IMG/VR virus record: IMGVR_UViG_3300030090_003678
Span: 1,446 to 28,587 of that record
From: a virus
Length of the DNA: 27,142 bases
Direction: 5' to 3' (one strand)
Shown: one piece after another, positions 18,483-22,216 of the stretch
How positions within the stretch are numbered: the first letter of the stretch is position 1
Layout: the number at the start of each line of letters is the position of its first letter
Notes under the pieces: generated by a model
Told to the model about the DNA's origin: nothing
The model's input: only the letters and a program-made list of their open reading frames with translations
Database searches by the model: none
Made by a program: the position numbers and the translations under genes

Positions 18483-18562
18483 ATCTGGTTCAGCCCAAGT
18501 AGGTCTTACTTGAACAAACTTACAGCCTCTTTGGGAAATTGAAAACCGGCTTGGTTGAAATC

Positions 18563-18572
18563 GTGTATAATA
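18563..18572 (+). promoter_or_regulatory. GTGTATAATA promoter-like motif, copy 4
   Basis: Exact GTGTATAATA in the 270-base gap before nrdA. A start point near 18578 would give a leader of about 175 bases, or a separate small RNA of about 150 bases if transcription ends at the T-run near 18727. Confidence 0.6.
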
Positions 18573-18727
18573 CCTTGTTGGGTTATAAAGAGCTTCCTAC
18601 AGACGGAGAGCTAGAGCGACACCAACTCAACAAGCCCTTGTCGCACCAAGTGAGTAGTTTAATAAAAATTTTTTTAGTAAGTTTCCTCTAACAAATTGCT
18701 TGGTTCACAAGTGTCGCTCTATTTTTT
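18573..18727 (+). ncRNA. Putative structured leader RNA or small ncRNA before nrdA
   Basis: The gap 18483-18752 has no credible ORF. TAGAGCGACAC (18612-18622) pairs perfectly with GTGTCGCTCTA (18711-18721), the latter followed by T6, giving a terminator with an 88-base insert. A nested ACCAAG/CTTGGT stem (18645-18650 / 18699-18704) fits inside. Alternatives exist: GCGACA (18616-18621) also pairs with TGTCGC (18639-18644), and CTTGTTGGGTT (18574-18584) pairs with AACTCAACAAG (18624-18634) with one wobble. The competing pairings resemble an attenuator or riboswitch controlling nrdA, but a stand-alone small RNA fits equally. I do not recognise a known RNA class. Confidence 0.45.
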
Positions 18728-18752
18728 GTAAGAGGCGTATAGCGGATAGATT

Positions 18753-21209
18753 ATGACATCAGATATTAAGGTTAAGAAGCGCAACGGACGATTAGAACAG
18801 ATAAACCTAGATAAGATTAACAAATGCGTAGAGAGAGCCTGTGACGGCCTTACTGACGTATCGGTTAGCGAAGTTGTATTAGATGCAAGTCTACAGCTAT
18901 ACAACAAAATTACGACATCTGAAATAGACACCGCTCTTATAATGTCGGCTCGTTCTAAAATAGAGCAAGAACCAAACTATAATTATGTAGCCACGAACTT
19001 ATTACTCTCTAGCTTGTATAAAGAAGTTTTTGGTAAGAGTGTAAATGGTGATTTCCAAGAAGAATACAAAAGCTGTTTTATAAAACACATAAAAGCTCTT
19101 GTTAAAGAAGATCGGCTTAGCGAATCTATGCTAAGTTACGACTTGGAGTTTCTAAGCGAAAACCTGTCTATAGATAGAGATAAAAATTTCAAGTATTTAG
19201 GAATACAAACTCTTTACGATAGATACTTCATACACAAAGAAGGTCGTCGTATGGAAACTCCACAAGCGTTCTATATGCGGGTCGCAATGGGTCTTTGTTT
19301 GAATGAAGAAAATAAAGAAGAAAGAGCCGTTGAAATATACAACATGATGTCTGAGTTTAGATACTCGCCTTCTACTCCTACTCTTTTTAATAGTGGAACT
19401 TGCCACTCTCAATTATCGTCCTGTTATTTAAGTACAGTAGATGACTCTATTGATGGCATCTTTGGAACTATTCACGGTCAGGCTAGACTTTCAAAGTATG
19501 CTGGAGGTCTTGGTGTAGATTGGAGTTCTGTTCGTTCTACTGGTTCTTACATTAAGGGAACAAATGGTCAGTCTTCTGGATTAATTCCTTGGTTGAAGAT
19601 ATTTAATGATACTCTTGTCGGGGTTAATCAAGGCGGTAAACGAAAAGGTGCTGGATGCGCTTACCTAGAAGTGTGGCATCTTGACGTTGAAGATTTTTTA
19701 GACCTCAGAAAAAACACAGGTGATGATCGTCGCCGTTGTCATGATATGAATACTGCATTATGGATTTGCGATGAGTTCATGTTAGCGGCTCAGAAAGGAA
19801 GGGATTGGTATTTGTTTGATCCGTCCGAATGTCCTGACCTGCACGAAACATACGGCAAAAAATTCACCAGAACTTATAACAAATATAAAAAAATGGCGAA
19901 AGAGGGAGGGATCAAAAACTTCCGTGTCATAAACGCCAAAGACTTATGGAAGAAGATGCTGAAGTCTCTTTACGAAACAGGGCATCCATGGGTTACTTTT
20001 AAAGACCCTTCTAATATTCGCTATAGTAATAAGCATGAAGGTGTTGTTCATTCTTCCAATTTATGTACAGAAATACTTCTTCATACAAAGCCAACTCTGT
20101 ATGAAGATGGTGAAGTTGTTGAAGTAGGAGAGACTGCTGTTTGTAACTTGGCTTCTATCAATCTTGAAAACCATATTAAGGTTCGCACTATTGATTGGAA
20201 GAAATTGCAACGAACAGTAGAGGTGGCAGTCAGAGGATTGGATAATGTTATTGATCTCAATTTCTATCCAACCAAAGAAGCCGCCAAGTCTAACCTGCGA
20301 AATCGTCCTATTGGTTTAGGTATTATGGGTACTCACGGCTTGCTACATAAGCTAGGAGTTGTTTACAACTCCCAAGATGCTGTTGTTCTCTGTGGCAAGA
20401 TACAAGAATTCATCTCTTACCATGCTATTCTTACTTCTTCTAAGCTAGCGAAGGAGCGAGGACACTACGAATCTTATGAGGGTTCTGAGTGGAGTTTTGG
20501 TAATTTGCCTATCGACACTTATTGTCGATTGATGAACGAGAGATACCCAGAACACTTAAAGAGCGGTAAAGATAATCACTATAAACCTTCCGACTTTGAG
20601 CAAATGGATTGGAACAAAGTTAGAAGTCATATAGCTGAATATGGAATGAGAAATTCAAATGTTATGGCTATCGCTCCTACTGCAACAATTTCTTACATAC
20701 AAGGATGCTCACAATCTATTGAGCCTGACTACTCAGTTCTTTTTGTTTACTCAACATTGAGCGGAGAGTTCACAATGATTAATGAGCATTTTGTAGAAGT
20801 GGCGAAAAAGAAAGGGATATGGGGCAAAGACTTGATTGAAGCCCTTAAAGCCGCTGATGGAGATGTGATGTCTATTAATTTAGATGAAGAAATACAGCGA
20901 GAATTCAAAAGTGCATTTGATATAGAACCGAAAATTCTAATAGATGCTGCCGCCGAAAGGCAGAAATGGATTGATATGGGAGAATCCCTCAATCTATACA
21001 ACAAAGGAACAAGCCTTAAATATCTCAACGATATGTATATGCACGCTTGGGAGCAAGGTTTGAAGACTACATATTATTTAAGAAGCAAAGCAGCAACTAG
21101 ACTTGAAAAGTCTACTGTTGTTGCCGCCAAAGAAGAAGTACCTGAAGAAGATTTGAGTCAGGTAAAGGCGTGTTCTTTGGAAGATCCAGATTGTGAAAGT
21201 TGTCAGTAA
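18753..21209 (+). CDS. nrdA: Ribonucleoside-diphosphate reductase, large subunit
   Basis: 818 residues. An N-terminal ATP-cone (about 6-95, VKKRNGRLEQINLDKI) suggests allosteric activity control. The active site is complete: Cys224 in LSSCYL, Asn436-Leu-Cys438-Thr-Glu440, Cys464 in AVCNLAS, and the radical-transfer pair Tyr774-Tyr775 in TTYYLRS. The C-terminal tail carries Cys814-x2-Cys817, suited to reduction by a thioredoxin-like protein. Together with NrdB it converts ribonucleotides to deoxyribonucleotides for phage DNA synthesis. A GGAT site precedes ATG 18753, and a structured leader lies upstream. The stop overlaps the nrdB ATG by one base. Confidence 0.97.
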   Translation: MTSDIKVKKRNGRLEQINLDKINKCVERACDGLTDVSVSEVVLDASLQLYNKITTSEIDTALIMSARSKIEQEPNYNYVATNLLLSSLYKEVFGKSVNGDFQEEYKSCFIKHIKALVKEDRLSESMLSYDLEFLSENLSIDRDKNFKYLGIQTLYDRYFIHKEGRRMETPQAFYMRVAMGLCLNEENKEERAVEIYNMMSEFRYSPSTPTLFNSGTCHSQLSSCYLSTVDDSIDGIFGTIHGQARLSKYAGGLGVDWSSVRSTGSYIKGTNGQSSGLIPWLKIFNDTLVGVNQGGKRKGAGCAYLEVWHLDVEDFLDLRKNTGDDRRRCHDMNTALWICDEFMLAAQKGRDWYLFDPSECPDLHETYGKKFTRTYNKYKKMAKEGGIKNFRVINAKDLWKKMLKSLYETGHPWVTFKDPSNIRYSNKHEGVVHSSNLCTEILLHTKPTLYEDGEVVEVGETAVCNLASINLENHIKVRTIDWKKLQRTVEVAVRGLDNVIDLNFYPTKEAAKSNLRNRPIGLGIMGTHGLLHKLGVVYNSQDAVVLCGKIQEFISYHAILTSSKLAKERGHYESYEGSEWSFGNLPIDTYCRLMNERYPEHLKSGKDNHYKPSDFEQMDWNKVRSHIAEYGMRNSNVMAIAPTATISYIQGCSQSIEPDYSVLFVYSTLSGEFTMINEHFVEVAKKKGIWGKDLIEALKAADGDVMSINLDEEIQREFKSAFDIEPKILIDAAAERQKWIDMGESLNLYNKGTSLKYLNDMYMHAWEQGLKTTYYLRSKAATRLEKSTVVAAKEEVPEEDLSQVKACSLEDPDCESCQ

Positions 21210-22216
21210 TGAAGAAGACTAAAGAAATTATTTCGGATAAAGTTGCAGTAGTTAATCAAATCCTTCCCCACACAAATAAATGGGCTTGGGATTTATTCAT
21301 TGATGGCGCAGCCAATAATTGGATGCCAACAGAAATATCAATGGCAAAGGATATTGAGCAATGGAGATCAGACTCATTGACCAATGATGAAAAGCTGGTG
21401 GTCAAAAGATCGCTTGGTTTTTTTGCTGGTTCAGAGTCTTTAGTTGCAAATAACCTTTTGCTTAGCATATTCAAATATGTTACTGATCCTGAATGTCGCC
21501 AATACATCTTAAGACAAGCATACGAAGAAAGCCTACATAATCTTACAGTAGTATACTGCTGTGATTCTCTTGGGTTGAAGATCGACGAAGTTTACCAAGC
21601 TTACAATTCGATCCCTAGCATAAAGTCTAAAGACGAGTTCTTAATGAACATCTGCACAGATATAAATCGTCCAGACTTTAATATCAATACTCTAGAAGGT
21701 AAGAGAGAATTCCTAAGAAATATCATTACCTACTACGTCATATGCGAAGGAATCTTTTTCTTCTCTGGTTTTGCAATGCTACTTTCTTTTAATAGACAAA
21801 ATAAGCTTCCCGGAATTGGAGAGCAAATTCAATACACGCTTCGTGATGAAAGTCTACATATTAAATTTGGAACTAATTTGATTAATAGAATCAGAGAAGA
21901 TAATCCAAAAGTTTGGACTAAAGCGTTTGAAAAAGAAACTTTGGAACATATAGACAAAGCCATGGAACTTGAGCTTGCCTACGCAAGAGATGTTCTTCCA
22001 AATGGCATTCTAGGTCTGAACTCAGATATGTTTATTGACTATGTTCAATTCATAGCAAATAGAAGACTAGAAAATCTAAATTTACCAAGTCCATATGAAG
22101 ACACTAAAAATCCATTTCCGTGGATGAGTGAAATAATTGACTTGGAAAAATGTAAAAACTTTTTTGAAACTCGCGTAACTGAATACGCAGTAGGAAATAT
22201 AGAGGACGATTTTTAA
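21209..22216 (+). CDS. nrdB: Ribonucleotide reductase small subunit, class Ic-like
   Basis: 335 residues from ATG 21209 (TAATG overlap with nrdA). The metal ligands of the ferritin-like R2 fold can be read: Glu76 in GSESLVANN, Glu107 and His110 in EESLH, Glu180 in ICEGIFF, and Glu214 and His217 in RDESLH. The tyrosine that carries the stable radical in class Ia/b enzymes (four residues after His110) is Val114 here. The first ligand is Glu rather than Asp. Both features are those of class Ic R2 proteins, in which a Mn/Fe centre replaces the radical. Tyr326 near the C-terminus fits the radical-transfer Tyr. The enzyme would be radical-scavenger resistant. Confidence 0.93.
   Translation: MKKTKEIISDKVAVVNQILPHTNKWAWDLFIDGAANNWMPTEISMAKDIEQWRSDSLTNDEKLVVKRSLGFFAGSESLVANNLLLSIFKYVTDPECRQYILRQAYEESLHNLTVVYCCDSLGLKIDEVYQAYNSIPSIKSKDEFLMNICTDINRPDFNINTLEGKREFLRNIITYYVICEGIFFFSGFAMLLSFNRQNKLPGIGEQIQYTLRDESLHIKFGTNLINRIREDNPKVWTKAFEKETLEHIDKAMELELAYARDVLPNGILGLNSDMFIDYVQFIANRRLENLNLPSPYEDTKNPFPWMSEIIDLEKCKNFFETRVTEYAVGNIEDDF

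Follow-up and report, generated by a model that had tools for sequence, protein, structure and literature searches.

Phages need ribonucleotide reductase (RNR) for DNA synthesis, and the enzyme is often swapped between classes. The SAM-II, preQ1-II, fluoride and guanidine-III riboswitches are H-type pseudoknots with conserved A/U-rich loop bases, and some pseudoknot riboswitches contain a loop-helix triplex. The nrdJ RNA motif of Weinberg et al. (2017) is reportedly a candidate structured RNA found in metagenomes upstream of class II RNR genes. Control of an RNR gene by a structured 5' leader with a transcription stop is known from the 2'-deoxyguanosine (2'-dG) riboswitch of Mesoplasma florum (PMC12268651). 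In phage HK022, the put RNA (~70 nt of nascent transcript near an early promoter) suppresses termination by acting in cis on the polymerase (PMC9378689).

The window analysed here is a stretch of 27,142 nt of viral DNA (positions 1,446 to 28,587 of IMG/VR record IMGVR_UViG_3300030090_003678, a phage record of 76,944 bases). A DNA similarity search against named phages gave no match, and no cultured relative or host was found; the window contains no tRNA or tmRNA. The phages carrying the RNA belong to a very abundant, poorly studied marine virus group. The original prediction placed a structured, switch-like RNA between a promoter and nrdA, and the comparison with homologues strongly supported such an RNA. 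Our preferred reading, to which we assign a probability of roughly 0.6, is that it would be a cis-acting leader dedicated to RNR and equipped with a terminator (an attenuator). The features of the locus are as follows.

18496..18512, + strand: palindrome CAAGTAGGTCTTACTTG, a possible operator; 62-65 nt separate its end from helix A in eight of the 34 clusters
18563..18571, + strand: promoter -10 motif GTGTATAAT (from copy count and homologues)
18574..18584, + strand: helix A, 5' strand CUUGUUGGGUU (from covariation)
18585..18589, + strand: conserved joiner AUAAA from helix A to hairpin B (from alignments)
18590..18612, + strand: hairpin B, with conserved pairs 18591-18594 with 18609-18612 (from covariation)
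18613..18622, + strand: helix C, 5' strand AGAGCGACAC, the left arm of the originally predicted stem
18624..18634, + strand: helix A, 3' strand AACUCAACAAG, crossing helix C (from covariation)
18639..18644, + strand: TGTCGC, alternative partner of the left arm, conserved within one subclade only
18645..18704, + strand: hairpin D, ACCAAG (18645-18650) with CUUGGU (18699-18704); variable, in loop 3 (from sequence)
18711..18720, + strand: helix C, 3' strand GUGUCGCUCU
18722..18727, + strand: U-run, a terminator-like 3' end together with helix C
18753..21209, + strand: nrdA, class I RNR large subunit, 818 aa (from gene analysis)
21200..22216, + strand: nrdB, RNR small subunit, 338 aa (from gene analysis)

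Downstream of nrdB lie a PhoH-like gene and, further on, a UvsX-like gene.

The long stem that had drawn attention to the locus was present in full: 11 perfect Watson-Crick pairs (18612-18622 with 18711-18721) close an 88-base insert and are followed by T6 at 18722-18727. It was the sole stem of at least 10 bp before a T-run on the + strand of the window (0.07 in simulated windows). Its 11th pair (U18612-A18721) was not conserved in relatives. The further long-range stem noted at the promoter edge corresponds to helix A (18574-18584 with 18624-18634), which has 11 pairs including one G.U and begins 2 nt past the -10 motif. Because helices A and C cross, the predicted fold is a pseudoknot of the H type; hairpin B is inserted in its loop 1, hairpin D in its loop 3. 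A plain fold of the 180-base leader was only mildly better than shuffles (z -1.72), and this single-sequence fold is misleading since the folding program cannot represent a pseudoknot.

Homologues were collected by scanning IMG/VR with the NrdA protein, two RNA-only patterns and one class II RNR protein. The 61 distinct leaders obtained fell into 34 clusters at 80% identity. The order of elements was the same in all 61: promoter motif (usually GTGTATAAT), helix A 5' strand, a UAAA-containing joiner, hairpin B, a UAA/UAG joiner, helix C 5' strand (usually AGCGRCAC), helix A 3' strand, variable region D, helix C 3' strand (usually GUGUCGCU) and a U-run or terminator.

In a sequence-only alignment of 16 members, 95.3% of the helix A and hairpin B cells were paired, compared with 22.5-47.4% when partners were slid by 1-3 columns, and both sides had changed in nine of the 12 pairs. 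Across all 34 clusters, in an alignment that was fitted to the structure and is thus biased towards the modelled fold, the values were 94.2% versus 22.6-43.4%, with both-side changes in 11 of the 12 modelled A and B pairs; no shuffle reached the score. Hairpin B alone had 97.8% of its cells paired and both-side changes in all four pairs. With the register set by the best helix, the six inner pairs of helix A each showed three to six standard pair types and were paired in 32-34 of the 34 clusters. At one helix A position, G.U was found in 15 of the 16 first-set members, and 31 of all 34 clusters had G.U or G-C there.

As the presence of helix A had partly governed the choice of members, the same search was also applied to permutations: the mean for the true sequences was 17.6, and the best of 300 permutations reached 13.3. 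Helix C showed double changes (AAGUAACAC/GUGUUACUU in L270, GAACGGCAC/GUGCCGUUC in L285), and the stem of hairpin D was preserved through variants (AUCAAG/CUUGAU in L203, UUCAAG/CUUGAA in L329). A model built from the 16 members (R1) recovered 18 extra members outside the training set at E values of 4e-07 to 0.24, most of them below 0.01. Homologous leaders that had lost both stems without compensation, named beforehand as the refuting case, were also looked for; the stems persisted, with many compensating changes. Judged from these alignments, the comparison with relatives shows that the leader structure is not due to chance.

A few members stood apart. In L017, L023 and L024, which lie upstream of nrdA, the helix C 3' strand is kept and the 5' strand has an apparent mismatch; these are possibly decaying or altered members. 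The pattern written for the AACGACAC subgroup, with a spacer that was too long, gave one irrelevant match. Outside phages, a pattern scan of 85,462 cellular genomes gave 11 matches against a chance estimate of ~15, and a pseudoknot-plus-promoter filter kept none of them. A second model (R2) gave no match in 399 genomes of one bacterial phylum, in a scan run without a positive control.

The same homologues bear on how the RNA might switch. The original prediction had proposed attenuation by competing stems, in which the distal arm (stop) and the nearer TGTCGC (go) would compete for the left arm. The nearer element does exist at 18639-18644, facing GCGACA at 18616-18621; this 6-bp alternative scores z 2.7 in the window, and a related TGTTGC occurs in several near relatives. 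Over the 34 clusters, however, the pairing was at chance level (mean z 0.16, two of 34 above 2). It was missing in L203, L227, L270, L285, L329 and all other groups, and in relatives the TGTCGC element is part of hairpin D. Helices A and C are predicted to coexist as a pseudoknot rather than to compete. A competing-stem switch is therefore largely refuted by its non-conservation, and we regard it as highly improbable.

No described family accounted for the RNA. The window leader had no match in Rfam 15 at E<=5, and at 16 loci no family reached the gathering score over the RNA. At E<=10, L211 and L285 gave only implausible sub-threshold matches. By these searches, the predicted leader RNA is previously uncatalogued and without an Rfam family match.

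Compared with the 2'-dG riboswitch, the likeness is that both are structured 5' leaders with a transcription stop before an RNR gene. The riboswitch, however, has a purine-riboswitch fold and an antiterminator helix, whereas the leader RNA is an apparent H-type pseudoknot carried by phages, in which no antiterminator helix was seen; the three-way junction of purine riboswitches was not found in it (no Rfam match). Two crossing helices and conserved A/U-rich loop bases are common to the leader and the H-type pseudoknot riboswitches, but the leader adds hairpins in loops 1 and 3, and by cmscan its sequence was unrelated to theirs. The nrdJ motif is said to stand before class II RNRs, whereas the leader RNA also precedes class I enzymes. 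The class II member L211 had no relevant Rfam match up to an E value of 10.

The association with RNR was very consistent. Two pattern scans that were blind to genes found 58 distinct contigs, and in 57 of them an RNR gene lay within 2.5 kb downstream; the 58th ends 328 bases past the motif. The downstream enzymes were of three types: class I NrdA like that of the window, class Ia NrdA of the E. coli type and B12-dependent class II (RTPR-like) enzymes. The class Ia NrdA of L253 is 29% identical to the window NrdA, and the class II enzymes are not significantly similar to it over the whole length. One clade is syntenic on both sides of the RNR locus, and in it nrdA and nrdB are replaced in place by a dCMP deaminase gene before the RNA and a class II RNR gene after it. 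In four class I members (G005, G007, G009 and G021), the RNA accompanies nrdA/nrdB, and the neighbours differ both upstream and beyond nrdB. A third gene arrangement was found in G027 and G018.

Each RNA-bearing record contained exactly one copy, and the leader RNA is missing from the window's three further GTGTATAAT operons. The predicted RNA thus belongs to RNR and not to a gene family or genomic place. As in riboswitches, a conserved aptamer-like fold precedes unrelated genes of one pathway. That the RNA is kept despite a swap to an unrelated RNR suggests that it controls the timing of RNR production and points to a common control signal. The RNA was absent in the close class II relatives G013 and G023 (RNR ~90% identical), in which the downstream genes are the same and the upstream genes are others, so RNR expression does not require it.

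The in-place exchange of a class I RNR for dCMP deaminase plus a class II RNR was seen among L371-L386, which are otherwise syntenic marine phages.

At the 3' edge of the RNA, a U-run or a separate terminator was found in 33 of the 34 clusters. A U-run follows helix C in 26 clusters (L041/L258 and L044, with five T, were assigned to this class by hand), and 18 clusters have a separate terminator (17 found by script, L253 by eye). The separate hairpin starts 10-16 nt after helix C in 16 of the 17 script-found cases. It was more frequent in clusters without a U-run (seven of eight) than in those with one (11 of 26; Fisher p 0.04). Only L269 is without any stop, and the RNA there is therefore a plain 5' UTR.

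In L270, L227, L208, L211, L209 and L013, the distance from the RNA to the RNR start codon is only 15-26 nt. Another promoter cannot fit into such a gap, so the RNR message must traverse the RNA. With a stop at the RNA edge in addition, the arrangement is that of an attenuated leader. The intrinsic terminator between promoter and gene that is typical of attenuators was thus present, but a mutually exclusive antiterminator pairing was not found. The complementarity of the separate terminators to the RNA was not beyond chance in the clusters that have one, and no second partner was conserved for the terminator arms or the helix C strand. The base-pair competition usual in riboswitches and attenuators was therefore not seen.

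These observations also fit, in part, a trans-acting small RNA of the phage, a discrete species of ~150 nt with its own promoter and terminator; RNR would then be co-transcribed with it as a module by leaky readthrough. The original prediction had treated such a small RNA as an equal alternative. Both ends of the RNA would be buried in helices (the 5' end in helix A, the 3' end in helix C with its U-run or the adjacent terminator), the terminators never pair with the RNA and there is one copy per genome. In one nrdA group (e.g. L222, L217, L205), moreover, the RNA is separated from nrdA by a terminator and a promoter-like TACAAT, so that nrdA there could be independent of the RNA. It is because of this group and the helix-buried ends that we grant a small RNA an appreciable minority chance. 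It is a genuine rival, though not one of equal weight, since the RNA always adjoins RNR and several lineages have no room for another RNR promoter. An RNA acting in trans would have no obvious reason to adjoin RNR without fail, across three kinds of the enzyme and several neighbourhoods, and the lack of a terminator in L269 also speaks against it.

In L222, L217, L232, L214 and L205, a conserved GGTACAATT block follows a strong terminator and lies ~60 nt upstream of nrdA. It is likely a second promoter in these members.

In another alternative, the RNA would modify the polymerase in cis, as put does, and cause readthrough of the adjacent terminator into the RNR operon. A structured RNA close to the promoter, terminators directly after it and the missing antiterminator pairing would suit this, and there is a precedent, as the nascent put RNA suppresses termination without a dedicated protein (PMC9378689). 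Both are phage RNAs near a promoter with terminators next to them, but put consists of two adjacent stem-loops of ~70 nt and occurs twice per genome, before early operons, whereas the leader RNA is a larger predicted pseudoknot with crossing helices, present once and always before RNR. The RNR-tied single copy, absent from the other GTGTATAAT operons, is difficult to reconcile with such a role, and in the U-run lineages helix C would have to be terminator and antiterminator simultaneously. We therefore consider put-like antitermination improbable. A general antiterminator before several operons was ruled out by the one copy per genome.

Returning to the cis-acting leader, its 5' end can be placed from the promoter. 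The motif GTGTATAAT has exactly four exact copies in the window (789, 8327, 10314 and 18563), all intergenic and on the + strand, with 0.15 expected; it is, by this distribution, a putative general promoter motif of the window's phage. Nearly all homologues have it directly before helix A. As called, helix A begins 1-9 bases past the -10 motif (34 clusters), and the RNA therefore starts in or beside helix A. In the window, transcription probably starts near 18577-18580, in which case the real helix A comprises the inner 7-8 pairs.

According to the proposed mechanism, transcripts would begin with the first bases of helix A; as synthesis proceeds, hairpin B would fold first, helix A second and helix C last, to give the pseudoknot. 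Polymerase would stop at the 3' edge, either at helix C and its U-run, as in the window, or at a separate hairpin terminator 10-16 nt beyond. By default, most transcripts would end as an RNA of ~150 nt, and RNR would be made only upon polymerase readthrough. We infer that the stop is functional and regulated. Candidate triggers would be a small molecule such as a nucleotide, a protein of phage or host origin, and an action of the RNA on RNA polymerase. As no antiterminator is conserved, a ligand or protein may serve as the trigger by stabilising helix C or by blocking it; alternatively, the RNA may act directly on the polymerase, as put does.

A signal common to class I and class II enzymes would not be B12 but nucleotide pools or phage timing. 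By analogy, the conserved A/U joiners beside the sequence-conserved helix C would suit a loop-helix triplex, which is a guess. It is possible, if doubtful, that the RNA represents a new class of phage RNA switch, whose pseudoknot would sense the nucleotide state or a phage take-over signal and gate RNR whatever the enzyme. As a candidate for an RNA regulator that is nucleotide-responsive or phage-specific, the RNA is unusually clean, and its family, consensus and contexts are now defined enough for direct testing.

Further elements were seen around the leader. The palindrome CAAGTAGGTCTTACTTG, followed by AACAAACTTA, was found in the window and in L211, L269, L270, L212, L208, L013 and L256, which are class I and class II members of one clade. 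It occurs as a single copy in the 77-kb record and is probably a regulator site for the leader promoter. The interval between RNR and the RNA, or a leader without the RNA, often contains a small lysine-rich ORF (..KFEV.F..RDKNGNPT..; L218, L251, L044, L213, L221, L306). Between the RNA and a class II RNR, a staphylococcal-nuclease-like ORF was found in L215, L252, L254 and L262; the domain match was checked in L215 only.
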